From: an uncultured Flavobacteriales bacterium
Lineage (GTDB): Bacteria; Bacteroidota; Bacteroidia; Flavobacteriales_D; Crocinitomicaceae
Reading direction: 5' to 3'
Length of the DNA: 64,000 nucleotides
Assembly: GCA_903945495.1 (NCBI GenBank)
Contig: CAJAVU010000021.1
Span: 186,001-250,000 of the forward strand
The position numbers and the translations under genes are program-made. The notes under the pieces are model-generated. The model made no database searches, had not been told where the DNA came from, and worked only from the letters and a program-made list of their open reading frames with translations. Positions within the stretch are counted from its first letter, which is position 1, and each line of letters begins with the position of its first letter. Positions 1-60,773 of the stretch are shown here, piece after piece.

Positions 1-3000
1 ATAAACTACCAATATCCTCAGTCGTGAACCCGTTGTTCCACAAATAGGTGTAACCCGGATTTCCCCCACCAATTGTCAAATCAATACTTCCATCATTGAA
101 TCCAAAACAACTGATATTGCTACCTGAAGGATACGTGAACGCAGAAACACCTTGTGTTAAAGCTGTTGGTTCAACTAAGGTAATGCTAGATGGAAGCGTA
201 CAACCGTTTAAATCTGTAATAATAACATTATAGGTACCTGCTGGTAAATTTGTTAAATCCTGCGTTGTCGCTCCAGTACTCCACGCATAGGTATAAGCTG
301 GACTACCATTTGCAGGTACTAAATCGATTGAACCATCGCTCAAACCAAAACAACTTATGTTTGTTCCTGAAGGATACGTAAATGCAGAAACTGTTTGAGT
401 AAGCGCTGTTGGCTCAACTAACGTAATTGATGAGTTAATTGTACAACCATTCAAATCCGTAGTCGTTACTGTATAAGTGCCTGCTGGAAGAGAAGCAATA
501 TCTTGAGTTGTTGCACCTGTATTCCATACATACGTATAACCAGGACTTCCGCCGCCAATTGTTAAATTAACAGAACCATCACTTAAACCGAAACAACTAA
601 TATTGTCTCCACTAGGATATACAAATGCAGTTGTTCCTTCCGTTAACGCTGTAGGTTGTGTCAATGTAATTGAAGAAGGAATTGTACATCCATTCACATC
701 GGTTACTAAAACTGTATACGTTCCGATTGGTAAACCCGCAATATCTTCTGTGATTGCACCAGTTGACCATAAATAAGTGTAAGCTGGGTTACCTCCGTTA
801 ATTGTTAAATCAACTGAACCATCACTCAATCCAAAACAACTAATGTTACTTCCTGAAGGATATGTAAATGCAGTAATTCCTTGCGAAAGCGCTGTTGGTT
901 GTGTCAAAGTAATTGTACTCGTGATTTGACAACCATTTTGATCTGTCACTAACACATTGTACGTTCCTGCCGGTACATTTGTTAGATCCTGAGAGGTTGC
1001 ACCGTTACTCCATGCGTATGTGTATGGTCCAACTCCACCATTTATTGTTAAATCTATTGAACCATCACTTAAACCAATACAACTAATGTTTGTTCCTGAT
1101 GGATAAACGAATGCTGAAATTGTTTGTGTCATTCCAGCTGGCGATGTTAAAGTAACTGCACTTGTTGTTTGACAACCATTTAAATCTGTAACTGTTACAG
1201 AATATGCTCCTGCTGGCAATAAAGAAATATCTTGGTTGTTAGAACCGTTTGACCAAACATATGTGTATCCAGGATTTCCACCAGCCACAGTTAAATCGAT
1301 TGAACCATCAGGTAAACAACCAGAAACGTTGAATCCTCCAGGATAGACAAATGGCGTAACATTCGAAGTTAAAAGAGTCGGTTGAACCAATGTAATCGTT
1401 GAAGGAATTGAACATCCATTTACATCAGTAACAGTAACATTATAAGTTCCTGATGGTACATTACTCAAATCTTGGGTAATTGCTCCGTTCGACCATGCGT
1501 ATGAGTATGCTGGACTTCCACCATTGATTGTCAAATCAACATTTCCGTCAGATAATCCAAAACAACTGATGTTTGTTCCTGAAGGATAAATCGTTGCACT
1601 GATATTTTGAGTTAATGCTGTCGGTTGCGTCAATGTGATCGTTGATGGAATTGTACATCCATTCACATCCGTTACAGTCACAGAATAAGTTCCTGCTGGA
1701 ATTGCTGCTAAGTCTTGTGACGTTGCGCCGTTTGACCAAACGTATGTGTAACCTGGATTTCCTCCATTGATCGTTAAATCAACCAAACCATCAGATAATC
1801 CGAAACAACTAATGTTTGTTCCACTTGGGAAAGTTGGCGACGAAATTCCTTGAGTTAATGCTGTCGGTTGTGTAAGTGTTACTCCTGTTGCGATAGTACA
1901 ACCATTAACGTCTGTTACTAAGACATTATACGTTCCAGCTTGGACATTGGTTAAATCTTGCGTTAATGCTCCATTTGACCATGAATACGAATAACCAGGA
2001 TTTCCTCCACCAATTGTTATATCAACATTTCCATCACTCAATCCAAAACAACTGATGTTTGTTCCACTTGGGAAAGCTGTTGCTGTTAAACTTTGAGTAA
2101 GTGCTGTTGGTTGAACCAATGTTATTGTAGAAGGAACTGTACAGCCATTCACATCTGTTACAGTTACATTGTATGTTCCAAAAGGAATAGTTGTTAAATC
2201 TTGTGTTGTTGCACCATTCGACCAAGCATAAGTATAACCAGGATTTCCTCCATTGATCGTTAAATCTACAGATCCATCCGAAAGTCCGAAACAGCTAATG
2301 TTTGTTCCACTTTGGTAGATTGCCGCTGAAATCGTTTGAGTTAATAGAGTTGGTTGTGTTAACGTAATTGAACTTGAAATTTGGCAACCAACTTGATCAG
2401 TAATAACAACACTATATGTTCCAGCTGGAATATTTGTTAAATCTTGTGTTGTTGCTCCAGTGTTCCACAAGTATGTATAACCTGGACTACCTCCTCCAAC
2501 TGTCAAATCAATATTTCCATCGCTCAATCCAAAACAACTGATATTCGTTCCACTTGGGAATGTTGTCGCAGTAATGCTTTGTGTTAATCCTGATGGTTGC
2601 GTTAAAGTGATATTACTAGAAGTGATACAACCATTTACGTCCGTCACATTCACAATGTAGTTACCAGCAATCAACGACGAAATGTCTTGTGTTAAAGCAC
2701 CATTTGACCAAGCATACGTATATCCAGGATTTCCGCCTGCAACTGTCAAATCAATTGTTCCATCTGCAACACAACCTGAAACATTGAAGCCTCCTGGATA
2801 AAGGGAAGGAACCAGTCCTGAAGTTAATGCCGTTGGTTGAGTTAACGTAATTGAGGATGTAATAGTACAACCATTCAAGTCCGTTACTGTTACATTGTAT
2901 GTCCCTGCTGGTACATTCGTTAAATCTTGTGTTGTTGCACCGTTTGACCATGCATAAGTGTAAAGCGGCGTTCCACCATTAATCGTTAAATCTATTGATC

Positions 3001-6000
3001 CATCAGATAATCCAAAACAACTGATGTTGGTTCCTGAAGGATATGTAAACGCTGTAATTGCTTGCGATAAAGGAGGCGGAGTTGTTAATGTAATTGAACT
3101 TGTTGTTTGACAACCGTTCACATCAGTAACTGTGACCGTATACGCTCCAGCTGGTAATGCCGATAAATCTTGCGTTGTTGCACCATTTGACCATGCATAC
3201 GTGTAAGCTGGATTTCCACCACCAACTGTTAAATCAATCGTTCCGTTATTCGCACAGCCTGTTAAGTTATAACCTCCGGCATATAGAGAAGGAACAACAC
3301 CTGATGTAAGAATCAACGGTTGAGTTAAGTTAATTGAGGATGTAATTGTACAACCATTTAAATCTGTAACAATAACAGTATAACTTCCTGCTGGAACATT
3401 TGTTAAATCTTCTGTAGTTGCTCCATTTGACCATGCATAGCTATAGCCTGGTGCTCCTCCTGCGATTGTTAAATTGATACTTCCATCAGATAAACCGAAA
3501 CAACTAATGTTTGTTCCTGAAGGATAGACAAATGCAGAAATTGTTTGTGTTAATGCTGTTGGTTGGGTAATTGTAATTGTTGCTGTTGCGGCACAACCTC
3601 CGGCTAAACCATTTGCATCGTGTACGTTGACCGTGTAAGTCCCTGCTGCTAAACCATTGATGTCTTGAGACGTTGAACCATTGCTCCATGTGTATGTATA
3701 TGGCAATGTTCCACCAGCTGGTGTTAAATCAATCGCTCCTGTTGCTGCTGAATTACACAATACATTTGTTTGTGTAAATGCCAAAGTTAACGCTGCAGCT
3801 GGTTGAGTGATTGTAACAGTTGCTGTTGCCGTACAACCGCCAGTTGATCCATTCGCATCTGTAACTGTTACAGTATATGTTCCAGCGATTAATCCAGTTA
3901 AATCTTCCGTTGTTGCTCCATTGCTCCAAACATACGAATACGGTGATGTTCCACCTGCAACCGTTAAGTTGATTGCTCCAGTATTTCCACCATTACATAA
4001 AATATTTGTTTGTGACGTATTCAATGTAATTGGTGCGGCTGGTTGAGTAATTGTGATTGTTGCCGAAGCAGCACAACCGCCAGTAGAACCATTTGCATCA
4101 GTTACTGTTACAGTATATGTTCCTGCAATTAAACTCGTTAAATCTTCCGTTGTTGCTCCATTTGACCAAGCAAAGGTATAAGGTGCAGTCCCTCCGGCCG
4201 GTGTTAAATTGATTGAACCAGTATTTCCTCCGTTACATAAAATATCCACTTTAGTAGATGTTAATGTTAAAGGCGCTGCAGGTTGAGTAATTGTAATTGT
4301 AGCTACTGCCGCACAAGAACCTGAAAGGCCATTCGCATCATGAACATTTACAGTATAAGAACCCGCTGGTAAATTCGTAATGTCTTGCGTAATTGCTCCA
4401 TTGCTCCAAGAATAGGTATAAGGTGCTGTTCCTCCTGCTGGTGTTAAATCAATTGAACCTGTTGTTGCACCATTACATAAAACATTTACTTGTGTACTCG
4501 TTAATGTTAAAGCTGCTGCTGGTTGCGTAATAGTAACAGTTGTAGTTGCTGTACAACCACCAACTGAACCATTTGCATCTGTAACAGTTACGGTGTATGT
4601 TCCTGCTGGAATAGTTGTTAAATCCTCTGTTGTTGCTCCATTGCTCCACACATACGAATAAGGAGCTGTTCCACCAGCAACTGTTAAGTTAATTGCGCCT
4701 GTTGAAGCACCAAAACACAAAACATTCGTTTGTGTTGTTGAAACCGATACTGGAGCCGATGGCTGTGTTATTGTTACTGAAGTAGTTGCCAAACAACCAC
4801 CAGTTGAACCATTCGCATCTGTTACTGTTACAGTGTATGTTCCTGCTGCCAAACCGATCAAATCTTCTGTTACTGCTCCATTCGACCATGCAAAGTTATA
4901 AGGTGCTGTTCCTCCTGCTGGAGATAAATTGATTGAGCCTGTTAAGCCACCATTACATAAAACGTTTACTCTTGTTGAAGTTAAGCTTAAAGGTGCAGCA
5001 GGTTGCGTGATTGTGACTGTCGTTGTAGCAGCACAACTTCCTGTACTACCATTCGCATCCGTTACTTGTACCGTATATGTTCCTACTGCAATTGCTGTTA
5101 AATCTTGTGTTACTGCACCATTACTCCATAAATAGGTATAAGGTGCTGTTCCTCCTGCTGGCGTTAAATCGATCGCACCTGTTAATGCACCGAAACATAA
5201 CACATTTGTTTGTGTTGTTGAAACTGTTAATGCAGCAGCTGGTTGAGTAATTGTAACAGTTGTTGTTGCTGTACAACCCCCTGTTGAACCATTTGCGTCA
5301 GTAACAACTACCGTATATGTTCCTGCAGCTAAAGCTGAAATATCTTGGGTTGTTGCTCCATTGGACCAAACGTATGAATATGGAGCCGTTCCACCAGCAA
5401 CTGATAAGTTAATTGCACCAGTTGATGCACCAAAACATAGAATATTTGTTTGCGTTGTTGAAACAGAAAGAGCAGCTGAAGGTTGAGTGATTGTTACAGA
5501 CAACGTTGCTGAACATCCACCAGCTGAGCCATTCGCATCCGTTACAGTGACAGTATATGTACCCGCAGCTAAACTAGAAATATCTTGATTTACAGCACCA
5601 TTTGACCATAAATACGTGTACGGCGCTGTTCCACCGGCTGCAGTTAAATCAATCGAACCGGTTGATCCACCATTACATAAAACATTCACTTGCGTAAATG
5701 ATAATGATATTGCTGCGGCAGGCTGAGTGATTGTTACAGATGTTGTCGCGGCACATCCACCAGTTGTTCCGTTAGCATCATGAACGTTGACCGTATACGT
5801 TCCAGCTGCTAAACCGCTAACATCTTGTGTCGTTGCACCATTACTCCATGAATAAGTGTAACCTGGAGTTCCTCCTCCTGCTGTTAAATCGATTGAACCT
5901 GTTGCCCCTCCGTTACATAAAACATTAACATTCGCACTATTTAAAGCGACTGGAGTGTCAGGTTGAACAATTGTAACTGAAGTTGTTGCGGCACAACCAC

Positions 6001-6425
6001 CAGTTAATCCGTTTGCATCATGCACGTTCGCAGTATATGTTCCTTCAGGTAAGCTGTTCAAATCTTGTGTTACTGCTCCATTGCTCCATAAATAAGTGAA
6101 CGGTGCTGTTCCACCAGAAACACTCAAATCAATTGCTCCAGTGCTACCTCCAAAACATAAAACATCTGTTTGAGTAAAAGATAAAGTAAGCGGAGCAGCT
6201 GGTTGCGTAATTGTCACCGTAGTTGTTCCTGTACATCCATTCGCATCTGTAACAGTAACAGAATATGTGCCTGCTGGCAATGAATTCAAATCTTCCGATG
6301 TTGAACCATTACTCCATAAATAAGAAAAAGGGGCGGTTCCAGAAGATACTGTTAAATTGATTGAACCAGTTGTTCCTCCATTACAAGCAACATCTACTTT
6401 CGTTGTTGATAAAGAAGGTAATGGC
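1..6425 (-). repeat. Tandem array of about 27 SprB-type repeats (~240-243 bp, ~80 aa each), continuing past the window edge
   Basis: The C[FN]G..[DT]G.[IV][DN]LT..GG......W[SN][NT]G motif recurs every ~240-243 bp, at about 6390, 6155, 5915, 5675, 5435, 5195, 4950, 4710, 4470, 4230, 3990, 3750, 3495, 3250, 3010, 2770, 2530, 2285, 2040, 1800, 1560, 1315, 1078, 835, 590, 350 and 110. Confidence 0.93.
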
Positions 6426-20944: not shown

Positions 20945-22312
20945 TTACTTTCCAATACAAAACTTGGAGAAAATATTCCCAAGCAGATCATCGGTAGAAA
21001 TATCGCCTGTGATGGTGCCTAAATCGTACATGGCTTGACGAATATCCATCGCTACGAAATCTGCAGAAATGTTGTTGTCTAAATCGAATTTTGCTTTTTC
21101 GAGAGAAACAGCTGTGCGCACCAACGCGTCGTAGTGACGAATGTTTGAAACAATTGTATCATTGGCCAAATTAAAATCTCCTGTTACCAATTCAACCAAT
21201 TTCTCACGCAGGGTTTCCATTCCAATTCCCTCTTTGGCAGAAATAGATATGCACTCCTTTTCGCAAGATTCAACTTTTTCTTGAGAAATATCTTGTTTAT
21301 TGGCTAGAACCAGTACTTTTTTATCTGGAAATTCTGTTTCGATTTCTGTCGCCCAGTTTGCCACTTCTTTCAAACTTGAGGGGATAGAAGTATCAGCCAA
21401 ACACAAGACTACTTGCGCCTGTTTGATTTTTTCTTTCGAGCGTTCGATTCCCATGGCTTCAATCTCCTCAGCTCCTTCTCGAATTCCAGCTGTATCAATT
21501 AAGCGGAATAAAATTCCTTCGATGTTCAATGTTTCTTCAATCACATCGCGTGTTGTCCCAGCAATGTTACTAACGATTGCCCGATCTTCACCCAATAGCT
21601 GATTCAACAAAGTACTTTTTCCGGTATTTGGTGCGCCAACAATTGCAACAGGAACACCATTTTTAATTGCATTTCCCAATTCAAAGGATTTCGCCAAACG
21701 ATTGATGTACGATAAAACATCCGTTACCAATTGTTTCAGTTCTTTGCGATCTGCAAATTCAACATCTTCTTCTGCGAAATCGAGTTCCAATTCAACCAAG
21801 GAAGCAAAGTGGATTAACTTTTCACGTAACTCTTTCAACTCATTGGAGAAACCTCCGCGTAATTGTTTCAAGGCAATATCGTGGGCACTTTTCGATTGAG
21901 AAGCAATTAAATCTGCCACAGCTTCCGCTTGCGATAAATCCAATTTACCGTTCATGAAAGCACGCATCGTGTATTCTCCTGGTTCTGCCAAGCGACATCC
22001 TTTTTGCAATAAGGCTTGAATGATTTGTTGTTGAATGTAGGGTGAAGCGTGACAAGCAATTTCTGCACTTTCTTCACCAGTGAAGCTTTTTCCTTCAGCA
22101 AAAACAGTGATCAATACCTCATCGATGACTTCGTTTTGTTCATTTTTTACGGTACCAAAATGTGCAGTATGTGAAGCCTTGTCGTGTAAACTCTTCGAAA
22201 AGATAGCAGAAACAATTTCCAAGGATTTAGCACCAGAAACGCGAATCATCGCGATGGCTCCTACTCCATTCGGTGTTGCTAATGCACAAATAGTATCGTT
22301 TGAATGTATCAT
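20945..22312 (-). CDS. mnmE: tRNA uridine-5-carboxymethylaminomethyl(34) synthesis GTPase MnmE
   Basis: 'DTICALATPNGVGAIAMIRVSG', G1 'GAPNTGKSTLLNQLLGEDRAIVS', 'GTTRDVIEE', 'DTAGIREGAEEIE', C-terminal 'IFSKFCIGK'. Confidence 0.98.
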   Translation of the reverse strand: MIHSNDTICALATPNGVGAIAMIRVSGAKSLEIVSAIFSKSLHDKASHTAHFGTVKNEQNEVIDEVLITVFAEGKSFTGEESAEIACHASPYIQQQIIQALLQKGCRLAEPGEYTMRAFMNGKLDLSQAEAVADLIASQSKSAHDIALKQLRGGFSNELKELREKLIHFASLVELELDFAEEDVEFADRKELKQLVTDVLSYINRLAKSFELGNAIKNGVPVAIVGAPNTGKSTLLNQLLGEDRAIVSNIAGTTRDVIEETLNIEGILFRLIDTAGIREGAEEIEAMGIERSKEKIKQAQVVLCLADTSIPSSLKEVANWATEIETEFPDKKVLVLANKQDISQEKVESCEKECISISAKEGIGMETLREKLVELVTGDFNLANDTIVSNIRHYDALVRTAVSLEKAKFDLDNNISADFVAMDIRQAMYDLGTITGDISTDDLLGNIFSKFCIGK

Positions 22313-40396: not shown

Positions 40397-40428
40397 AAAG
40401 GTCCGAAATTAAGTTTCGGATCTTTTTT
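40397..40428 (+). terminator. Rho-independent terminator after ispG
   Basis: AAGGTCCGAAA-TTAAG-TTTCGGATCTTTTTT. Confidence 0.88.
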
Positions 40429-40438
40429 GTTTCATATT

Positions 40439-40454
40439 AGTTCCACGTGGAACT
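40439..40454. promoter_or_regulatory. parS-like site (ParB-binding), perfect 16-bp palindrome
   Basis: AGTTCCACGTGGAACT, compared with the canonical parS TGTTNCACGTGAAACA; lies just 3' of mnmG. Confidence 0.75.
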
Positions 40455-40461
40455 ATTCGTT

Positions 40462-42333
40462 TTATCTTCCTAAATGAATCAAAAGCACAGTAATATCACT
40501 TGGAGAAACACCACTAACGCGTGCCGCCTGTCCAATTGTAACTGGTTTTATTGCTGAAAGCTTTTCTTTTGCTTCTGAACTTAAGCTTTTCAACGCACGA
40601 TAATCAATAGAATCAGGAATCTTCACTTCTTCCATACGACCCATTTTCTTCGCTTGATCCTCTTCACGTTCAATATAACCTTCGTATTTCAATTGAATCT
40701 CAGCTTGAGAAACAACATCCGGATGTACCAAATTTAATTCAGAAGCCAGTTCATTTATCTCCACAGACATTTCCAAAACATCGTTCATCTCAATTTGAGG
40801 TCGTGTAATTAAACTACCCAACTTAACTTGTTGCGTAATTTCAGCACTTTCCTTTCTAGTTAAAATTGGATTTGCCATAGAAGGAGTGACGCCAATCGAC
40901 TTAAGTGCCTTTTTGAATTGATCAGTTCCAGCAACCTTTTTATTAACACGCTCTAACATTTCATCATCCGCCAAACCTATTTCATGACCAATTGGAGTCA
41001 AACGAACATCCGCATTATCTTGACGCAACAAGATGCGATACTCTGCACGACTTGTAAACATACGATACGGTTCTTTTGTCCCTTTCGTAATTAAATCATC
41101 AATCAAAACACCAATGTACGCATCACTACGATTCAAAATAATTGGTGACAATTCACGTACTTTTCTATGCGCATTTATTCCAGCCATCAAACCTTGACAA
41201 GCAGCTTCTTCGTATCCTGTCGTACCATTAATTTGTCCAGCGAAATACAAACCTGAAATCAATTTCGTTTCCAAGGTATGTTTCAACTGAGTAGGAGGGA
41301 AGTAATCATATTCAATCGCATATCCTGGACGAAACATTTTTGCTTGTTCAAAACCAGGAATTGTTCGCATTGCTTTCAACTGAACATCTTCAGGCAACGA
41401 TGTACTAAAACCATTCACATATATTTCAACAGTATTCCAACCTTCTGGTTCAACAAAAATTTGATGACGATCTCGATCTGCAAAACGATTTATCTTATCC
41501 TCAATACTCGGACAATATCTTGGACCCGTACTTTTAATTGAACCATTGAACATTGGTGAACGATCAAAACCTGTTCTCAATAAATCATGTGTTTGTTCAT
41601 TCGTATACGTAATGTGACAAGCATGTTGTTTTTGCAAAGCCAGCGTATTTCCAAAACTAAACTTCGAAGGATTCAAATCGCCATCTTGGATTTCCATTTT
41701 AGAATAATCCAACGAACGACCATCAACTCGAGGAGGTGTTCCTGTTTTCATTCTACCAGCCTCAAAACCTAAACGAATTAAATCTTCTGTAATTCCAGTT
41801 GAAGCTCTTTCTGCTGCACGTCCACCTCCAAATTGTTTTTCACCCATGTGAATCAAACCATTCAGAAACGTTCCGTTTGTCAAAACAACTGCCTTTGAAA
41901 AAATATCGATTCCAAGAGACGTTTTCACTCCGCGAATTTCTTCACCCTCCACAATCAAACCTGTGCACATGTCCTGCCAAAAATCAACATTTAGATTTCT
42001 TTCTAGCAACAGTCTCCATTCCTCAGCAAACAACATTCGATCATTCTGCGTTCTTGGTGACCACATTGCAGGACCTTTTGACAGGTTCAACATTCGAAAT
42101 TGAATCGCGCTTCGGTCGCTCACAAAACCTGAACCACCACCAAGCGCATCAATTTCTCGAACAATTTGTCCTTTTGCAACTCCACCCATCGCTGGATTGC
42201 AACTCATTTGCGCAATTGTATTCATGTTCATCGTCACCAACAACACACTACTTCCCATCTTCGCAGCAGCATTTGCGGCTTCACAACCCGCATGACCACC
42301 ACCAACAACTATAACATCATACTCTTTTAACAT
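40462..42333 (-). CDS. mnmG: tRNA uridine-5-carboxymethylaminomethyl(34) synthesis enzyme MnmG (GidA)
   Basis: '[62 protein letters not shown]', '[28 protein letters not shown]'. Confidence 0.98.
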
Positions 42334-42340
42334 AACTCAA

Positions 42341-42356
42341 TGTTTCACGTGGAACA
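42341..42356. promoter_or_regulatory. parS-like site (ParB-binding)
   Basis: TGTTTCACGTGGAACA; its reverse complement TGTTCCACGTGAAACA matches the TGTTNCACGTGAAACA consensus exactly. Confidence 0.85.
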
Positions 42357-42378
42357 AAATTACAACCATTCAAGAAGA

Positions 42379-42804
42379 TTATGTTTCACGTGGAACATAT
42401 TTCTTAAGATAAAAATCTTCCTTCACACGCATTTGTTTTTCATCTTCATCCGACTTATCCTTATAACCACATAAATGCAACACACCATGGACACAAACAC
42501 GTCTTAATTCAGAGTCATATTCAGTGTTCAACTCGACAGAATTATCCAGAACACGATCTATTGATATAAACAAATCACCACTCACTATGTTTTCTTCACA
42601 ATAGTCAAACGTGATAATATCCGTATAATAATCATGCTGTAAAAAATCAATATTCATCTTCAGCAAGGCCTCATCTGAACAAAAAATCAAATTTACATCA
42701 CCCGCTTCAAAACCTTCATCCACTATAACTTGCTCGAGCCATAAAGCAAAATGTTCCGAGTCAAGACCCGGAACATTCACATCTTCTAAAGAAAATTCTA
42801 TCAT
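42379..42804 (-). CDS. ybeY: Endoribonuclease YbeY (rRNA maturation RNase)
   Basis: 'DIITFDYCEENIVSGDLFIS', 'VCVHGVLHLCGYKDKSDEDEKQMRVKED' (H-G-x-L-H-L-x-G-x-x-H/D-like motif). Confidence 0.94.
   Translation of the reverse strand: MIEFSLEDVNVPGLDSEHFALWLEQVIVDEGFEAGDVNLIFCSDEALLKMNIDFLQHDYYTDIITFDYCEENIVSGDLFISIDRVLDNSVELNTEYDSELRRVCVHGVLHLCGYKDKSDEDEKQMRVKEDFYLKKYVPRET
42382..42397. promoter_or_regulatory. parS-like site (ParB-binding)
   Basis: Second identical TGTTTCACGTGGAACA, 41 bp from the first, encoding the last residues (VPRET) of YbeY. Confidence 0.85.
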
Positions 42805-58637: not shown

Positions 58638-60773
58638 TTAATCTACTACAAGCTCTAAATCGATCTGACGTTTGCGCGGATGAACTTCGTAAATACGCAC
58701 GCGTACTTTATCACCAAAATTGTATTCTTTCTTCGTTTTTCCACCAATGATGCGGTATTTTTCAGCATCGAAATAGAAACGGTCGCCCGGAATATCATTC
58801 ATTGGAACCATGCCTTCACAATAGTTTTCGTCCATTTTCACAAACAAACCAAATTCGGCAATTCCAGAAACGGTTCCTGTAAATTCTTCACCGATGTGGT
58901 CTTGTACAAATAAGGTTTGGAAGTATTTAGTCGATTCACGTTCTGCTTCAACAGCTTTGCGCTCCATGCGCGAAATACGTTTACAGACATCGTCCAATTC
59001 TTTTCCGTAACGGTGTTTTTTATGCGTCAATTCTTCCTGAAGAATACGGTGAACAACCAAATCGGCATAGCGACGAATCGGTGACGTAAAATGCGTGTAG
59101 AAATCAAATGCCAATCCGTAGTGACCAATATTCGTTGTTTCATACGTTGCTTTTGCCATCGAACGAATCGCCATGGTTTGGATCAAGGAATACTCATTTT
59201 TTAAACGAATATCATCCAACAAACGATTGATGCTTCCAGCAATTTGATCAGGCGTTGTGAAGTCCAATTTGTAACCAAATTTATCGATGAAAACATTGAA
59301 CAAAGCAATTTTTGCCACATCCGGTTTGTCGTGTACACGGAAAACAAAGGGAACAGGATCTCTTCCTTTTTTCGGTTCGGCAACAAACATTGCTACTTTT
59401 TTATTCGCCAATAACATGAATTCTTCAATCAGTTTATGCGCGTCTTTTGATGTCTTAATAATCACTTCTGATGGGTGACCAGTTTCATCCAATTTGAAAC
59501 GCATTTCTTCTGATTCAATGCTCAACGCTCCGTGTTTTAAGCGCGCTTTTCGCAAAATTTTAGCTATTTTATCGAGAATAAGGATTTCTTCTTTGTAATC
59601 ACCCTCTTTTCCTTCGATGATTTCTTGTGCTTGTTCATAGCTAAATCGACGATCAGAATGAATCACTGTTTTACCAAACCATTGGTTATAGACCTTTCCA
59701 TTTTCGTCCATTTCAAAGACGGCAGAGAAACTAAATTTATCTTCATTTGGTCGCAATGAACACGCCATATTCGACAATTGTTCTGGCAACATTGGAACAA
59801 CGCGATCGACCAAGTAAACAGAATTTGAACGCTTCAACGCTTCTTTGTCCATTTCACTTCCTGGACGCACGTAATAACTTACATCCGCAATGTGAACACC
59901 AATTTCAATGTGTCCATTTTCTAAGCGCTTGAACGACAAGGCATCATCAAAATCGCGTGCATCAACTGGGTCAATAGTAAAGGTTGTAATGTTTCTAAAA
60001 TCGCGACGCGTTTTCACTTCTTCAGGATCCAAGTCCAATCCAATAACTTCAGCTTCAGCCAATACTTCTTGAGGGAATTTGTAATCGATTCCTTGGTTGC
60101 ACAATATGCTGATCATTTCAACATCATTTGAACCTGGTTTACCTAATACTTCAACAACTTCGCCGTACGGATTTTTGGAAGATTTCGGCCAAACCGTAAT
60201 TTTCACCAATGCTTTGTCGCCTTGTTTTGCGCCTTTTAATTTTTCTTTTGCAATGTAAATATCTGTTCCAGCTTTCGCATTATCTGGTACCAAAAAGGCA
60301 AATTTTTCATGCATTTCAATGGTTCCAACAAATTGTGTGCGTTCGCGGTTCAAGACGTCAATTACTTCACCTTCATTACGCGATTGACCTCGCTTGAAAA
60401 TATGAACGCGCACACGATCGCCATTCAATGCTTGTCCAACATTTTGTGGAGCAATGTAAATATCAGCTTGTTCGTCATCCGTGATTACAAAACCTGCACC
60501 TCGTGCTGTCAACTCAATGTTTCCTTCAACCGAACTGCGCGAAATGCCTTTTGTGTATACGCCATGTGAAGCACGTTGCAATAAATTTTGCTTCACCAAA
60601 TCCTCCAAAATGTCATAAACCAATTTTCGAAGCGCATTTTCACGCACATCGATCAGTGCGCACACTTGTTTGTGAGAAAGCACACTTTCAGGGTTTTTAT
60701 CAAACACTTTACGAACCACATGCGTTAAGCTGTGCTTCATTTTTGAGGATTTATTTTGCTTGTTTTTTGACAT
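58638..60773 (-). CDS. rnr: Ribonuclease R
   Basis: 'FTIDPVDARDFDDALSFKRLENGHIEIGVHIADVSYYVRPGSEMDKEALKRSNSVYLVDRVVPMLPEQLSNMACSLRPNEDK', C-terminal S1 domain. Confidence 0.97.
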   Translation of the reverse strand: MSKNKQNKSSKMKHSLTHVVRKVFDKNPESVLSHKQVCALIDVRENALRKLVYDILEDLVKQNLLQRASHGVYTKGISRSSVEGNIELTARGAGFVITDDEQADIYIAPQNVGQALNGDRVRVHIFKRGQSRNEGEVIDVLNRERTQFVGTIEMHEKFAFLVPDNAKAGTDIYIAKEKLKGAKQGDKALVKITVWPKSSKNPYGEVVEVLGKPGSNDVEMISILCNQGIDYKFPQEVLAEAEVIGLDLDPEEVKTRRDFRNITTFTIDPVDARDFDDALSFKRLENGHIEIGVHIADVSYYVRPGSEMDKEALKRSNSVYLVDRVVPMLPEQLSNMACSLRPNEDKFSFSAVFEMDENGKVYNQWFGKTVIHSDRRFSYEQAQEIIEGKEGDYKEEILILDKIAKILRKARLKHGALSIESEEMRFKLDETGHPSEVIIKTSKDAHKLIEEFMLLANKKVAMFVAEPKKGRDPVPFVFRVHDKPDVAKIALFNVFIDKFGYKLDFTTPDQIAGSINRLLDDIRLKNEYSLIQTMAIRSMAKATYETTNIGHYGLAFDFYTHFTSPIRRYADLVVHRILQEELTHKKHRYGKELDDVCKRISRMERKAVEAERESTKYFQTLFVQDHIGEEFTGTVSGIAEFGLFVKMDENYCEGMVPMNDIPGDRFYFDAEKYRIIGGKTKKEYNFGDKVRVRIYEVHPRKRQIDLELVVD

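Follow-up and report, generated by a model that had tools for sequence, protein, structure and literature searches.

Three 16-bp palindromes that lie around mnmG in a 64,000-nucleotide stretch of an uncultured Flavobacteriales genome (hereafter the window; contig C21:186001-250000) almost certainly form a chromosomal parS centromere. By analogy with established ParABS biology, each 16-mer would be a binding site for ParB dimers, which would load as clamps in a CTP-dependent manner and spread across the neighbouring DNA (mnmG, ybeY and beyond), and ParA would then move the ParB-parS complex, giving the newly replicated origin region priority in segregation. The identity of the palindromes as parS is supported by their sequence, their uniqueness in the genome, the presence of a ParA/ParB pair, a nearby switch in GC skew and the wide conservation of the sites and their linkage to mnmG, and the initial annotation, which had proposed a ParB-loading cluster, is upheld on these grounds. 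The element is of a type long known, an ordinary chromosomal parS cluster: the 16-bp inverted-repeat consensus, the small number of copies and the clustering that define chromosomal parS are all found here.

Sequence and location of the palindromic sites

The three sites and the features around them are listed in Table 1. On the minus strand the order is ybeY, parS-C (overlapping the ybeY end), parS-B, mnmG, parS-A and then the convergent ispG gene. All three 16-mers occur with the sequences and at the coordinates given by the initial annotation (starting at 40439, 42341 and 42382), and direct reading bears out its description of parS-A as a perfect palindrome located between the ispG terminator and the mnmG stop. 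The chromosomal parS consensus of Livny et al. 2007, which PMC10197239 cites and uses, is TGTTTCACGTGAAACA. When the window was scanned with TGTTNCACGTGNAACA, allowing up to 3 mismatches, 21 matches were obtained as compared to a mean of 5.3 in shuffled sequence; only parS-B and parS-C matched with 0 mismatches, in agreement with the claim that these two sites fit the consensus. parS-A differs from TGTTNCACGTGNAACA at two positions, both of which are outer bases, and its 14-base core GTTCCACGTGGAAC is intact. Read on the mnmG strand, parS-B and parS-C are GTTCCACGTGAAAC. parS-C is in frame with the C-terminal codons of ybeY (42379-42397), which read Y-V-P-R-E-T-stop, and this in-frame placement at the end of ybeY recurs in many of the closest relatives, mostly as V-S-R-E-T. 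Elsewhere in the window, mnmE, which encodes the tRNA-modification partner of mnmG, is located at 20945-22312, ~18 kb from mnmG, and the left end (320-6165) contains arrays of ~240-bp diverged tandem repeats.

Table 1. Features of the parS-mnmG region (positions are those of the window).
Feature	Position	Strand	Sequence or description	Context or support
parS-A	40439..40454	.	AGTTCCACGTGGAACT	perfect palindrome, 7 bp beyond mnmG stop
parS-B	42341..42356	.	TGTTTCACGTGGAACA	ybeY-mnmG spacer, 7 bp ahead of mnmG start
parS-C	42382..42397	.	TGTTTCACGTGGAACA	overlaps final ybeY codons
mnmG (gidA)	40462..42333	-	623 aa, bracketed by parS sites	TIGR00136, E 2.9e-254
ybeY (rRNA maturation RNase)	42379..42804	-	3' end hosts parS-C	TIGR00043, E 1.6e-27
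Putative mnmG -7 promoter element	42355..42362	-	TAATTTTG; overlaps parS-B edge	predicted only
ispG terminator-like hairpin and T-run	40400..40428	+	separate from parS-A	read in sequence

Conservation of the mnmG-parS linkage

A parS cluster at mnmG, positioned upstream, downstream or on both sides, is conserved across most of Bacteroidota. The nearest named mnmG loci belong to Fluviicola and Crocinitomicaceae of the order Flavobacteriales (74-81% protein identity), and the window is accordingly assigned to a Crocinitomicaceae/Fluviicola-like bacterium. A site lies a few bases beyond the mnmG stop at 6 of the 16 closest loci. At least one exact core (GTTNCACGTGNAAC) is present at 58 of the 80 named Bacteroidota mnmG loci, 55 of which have a site within 220 bp upstream of the gene and 3 of which have sites downstream only. 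Neighbouring upstream sites are commonly separated by 34-49 bp, and the GTT of the proximal site is positioned 21-36 bp ahead of the mnmG start in 51 of 56 cases. Among further mnmG loci, a site lies within 470 bp at 28 of 30, often downstream only, and 27 of the 29 site-bearing loci of the order Flavobacteriales abut mnmG. At the level of whole genomes, the motif is present in 58/60 members of this order and in 184/198 genomes sampled across the phylum, most often in two copies. Comparison of the listed sites with mnmG positions in the phylum sample places sites beside mnmG in 21 genomes, and the gene is bracketed as in the window in several genomes that belong to the same class (G118, G107, G103, G170, G057, G021, G142 and G084). 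The linkage that the initial annotation suggested looking for in relatives is therefore conserved, both as upstream sites (55/80 loci) and as sites abutting the gene (27/29). In one genus (G072:C11 and G166:C3) a parS core occurs ~27 kb from mnmG, which in G072 is additional to a core beside mnmG. We found no published description of mnmG-parS linkage in Bacteroidota in a search that did not extend to Livny et al. 2007, and we do not claim that it is unpublished.

The 22 of 80 named mnmG loci that are devoid of sites are largely from Saprospiraceae and Hymenobacteraceae. In whole-genome searches of 13 genomes with site-less loci, the core was found elsewhere in 11 and a close pair was found in 7. 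In locus L175 (Saprospiraceae) the pair follows ybeY, which, like its counterpart in the window, has an ATPase-domain gene ahead of it, and a peptidase-like gene stands in place of mnmG; in other genomes of this set the pair is near either that peptidase gene or one resembling threonine synthase; in loci L185 and L186 (Hymenobacteraceae) a single parS is near recF-like and DUF721-like frames, the gene names at loci of these types being readings of the translations as opposed to library matches. The persistence of the centromere without mnmG in these two families argues against the sites being a mere mnmG operator. The view of mnmG as the parS neighbourhood thus holds with respect to conserved placement, but the link is positional and some lineages keep parS without mnmG. 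Finally, 14 of the 198 phylum genomes contain no exact GTTNCACGTGNAAC, and all 14 have a clear ParB and may have a diverged or lost parS (G033, G047, G055, G077, G082, G091, G116, G139, G148, G176, G180, G184, G190 and G191), indicating that ParB and the motif are imperfectly coupled.

Possible roles of the sites in mnmG expression

The sequence TAATTTTG at the edge of parS-B resembles the Bacteroidota -7 element, which we take to have the consensus TAnnTTTG. The sites could accordingly be true parS that also control mnmG, with ParB bound to parS-B covering the presumed transcription start and lowering or timing mnmG transcription. We consider this dual role unlikely. parS-B overlaps the TAnnTTTG element in the window and in the nearest relatives, and ParB-linked repression of the promoters adjoining parS3 and parS4 in Pseudomonas aeruginosa is reported in the title of PMC5521831; however, the promoter was predicted by eye, the overlap occurs mostly in one clade, and in other lineages the sites are downstream of mnmG. 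A TAnnTTTG element abuts the proximal site in 10 of 56 cases, nearly all of which are from the Fluviicola clade, and this fit does not support a general rule that would make parS a component of the mnmG promoter.

It is very improbable that the palindromes are instead an operator or a 5'-leader RNA hairpin for mnmG/ybeY that is bound by a transcription factor and not by ParB. The proximal site is only 7 bp from the mnmG start, its distance to the start codon is confined to the narrow range given above in 51/56 cases, and in the Fluviicola clade a promoter-like TAnnTTTG element is found at the site edge, all of which would suit an operator. Nevertheless, the sites are solely downstream of mnmG in many lineages, in Saprospiraceae and Hymenobacteraceae they are located at other genes (once directly after ybeY without mnmG), and their sequence is the ParB consensus. 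An RNA hairpin is further disfavoured because the form present on the mnmG strand in two of the window sites breaks one pair, whereas the CACGTG centre is always kept. Both the operator and the hairpin are thus disfavoured by the occurrence of the motif downstream of, or away from, mnmG in several lineages, and we retain the assignment of the palindromes as parS.

Uniqueness of the sites in the genome

The genome comprises 3,642,191 bp in 114 contigs and is rated 99.99% complete. Exact GTTNCACGTGNAAC occurs in it 3 times, in each case at mnmG and within 2 kb, as compared to 0.14 occurrences per genome expected from base composition and 0 occurrences of a reversed control pattern, which agrees with the earlier assertion that the clustering is far beyond chance. 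Allowing up to 2 mismatches to TGTTYCACGTGRAACA, 14 places in the genome match versus 4 for the control. The best further site has 1 mismatch to the 16-mer and is located 136 kb away within coding sequence, and the whole-genome scan therefore yielded no equally good site outside of the mnmG cluster. Chance occurrence, in favour of which there is nothing beyond the shortness of the motif, is rejected as vanishingly improbable by these counts and by the retention of site position in relatives, which show no visible conservation of the intervening sequence.

Partner proteins

A single ParB-family protein above the cut-off is encoded in the genome (307 aa, contig C57), and its gene directly follows a ParA gene. 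Among solved structures, chromosomal ParB and Spo0J are closest to it, followed by Noc. In the alignment to Caulobacter ParB (6s6h), from which the Caulobacter residue numbering was transferred by hand, the protein has R173 and G201; residues Q162, K171, S172, N178 and R204 are also conserved and G170 is replaced by A, such that 7/8 of the known parS-contact residues are kept. R173 and G201 are absolutely conserved in ParB and are replaced in Noc (Jalal et al., PMC7383237). The retention of these two residues, together with the other contact residues, implies that the protein should read parS and not a Noc site. No Noc-type protein (Q173, R201) was found among ParB-family proteins above the cut-off, the sole member having R173 and G201, and the reading of the palindromes as a Noc-binding site (NBS) was set aside for this reason. 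The comparison with parAB that had been proposed therefore revealed a ParA/ParB pair with parS-reading residues, though it is encoded on another contig.

Position relative to the replication origin

Contig C21 is 399,593 bp long, and its cumulative GC-skew minimum falls at window position 60,719 when all bases are used or 53,856 when third codon positions are used. This minimum, which is broad, is 12-18 kb from the parS sites (40.4-42.4 kb) on the same contig. Third-position skew in 20-kb bins of C21 is negative throughout the first 240 kb (12/12 bins) and positive in 7/8 of the remaining bins. In two single-contig relatives the sign change in third-position skew falls roughly 50-150 kb from mnmG, a coarse estimate as each was sampled at 20 places; third codon positions were used because raw GC skew proved too noisy when a complete relative was sampled sparsely. 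Taking skew as a proxy for the origin and not as a mapped origin, these data support an origin-proximal location of the parS cluster, as the initial annotation had surmised when it suggested comparison with the skew minimum. Its companion suggestion was comparison with dnaA. In this draft assembly dnaA is on a different contig from the parS sites, and C21 contains no consensus DnaA-box cluster that would mark oriC (19 boxes versus ~20 expected). The excerpted text of PMC10197239 likewise indicates that dnaA is not always an origin marker and that parS clusters and skew are used instead.

Comparison with known systems and absence of detectable condensin

As in other chromosomal ParABS systems, the sites are clustered 16-bp inverted repeats that are few in number and near a skew switch, and ParAB is encoded in the genome; unlike in those systems, they are located at mnmG/ybeY and not beside parAB, and Smc and ScpB were not found. 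In Bacillota and Proteobacteria the origin region contains the genes gidA-gidB-parA-parB. The arrangement described here is similar in that gidA (mnmG) is near parS and the origin, but here mnmG alone adjoins parS, parAB being located on a different contig. A further comparison is provided by a Hi-C study of the gut Bacteroidota Bacteroides caecimuris and Muribaculum intestinale, in which parS clusters occur at ori (PMC10197239). These bacteria belong to the same phylum, a parS cluster and skew likewise place their origins, and no homologue of a known condensin was found in them either; they are from a different order, and mnmG/ybeY are not named as neighbours in the excerpted text of that study.

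In the 99.99% complete genome, Smc was not detected above the cut-off (best match of 24 bits versus 567) and ScpB gave no match; the condensin search covered these two proteins. With both Smc and ScpB undetected, recruitment of canonical Smc-ScpAB is unlikely, and we do not ascribe Smc loading to the palindromes. In agreement with this, the excerpted text of PMC10197239 reports no known condensin in the two Bacteroidota studied; it also describes a secondary diagonal in one of them, Bacteroides caecimuris, an observation compatible with the action of another complex. It is conceivable, if rather doubtful, that mnmG-linked parS serves as a platform for an unidentified arm-aligning complex in Bacteroidota without Smc-ScpAB and that the retention of mnmG/ybeY reflects that origin domain. 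The apparent absence of Smc and ScpB makes this bacterium a candidate setting for a ParB-parS centromere that operates without canonical condensin. More broadly, a GTTNCACGTGNAAC cluster, usually touching mnmG, is a sequence-only marker of the origin region in Bacteroidota, and its use includes fragmented metagenome assemblies, where dnaA guides poorly.
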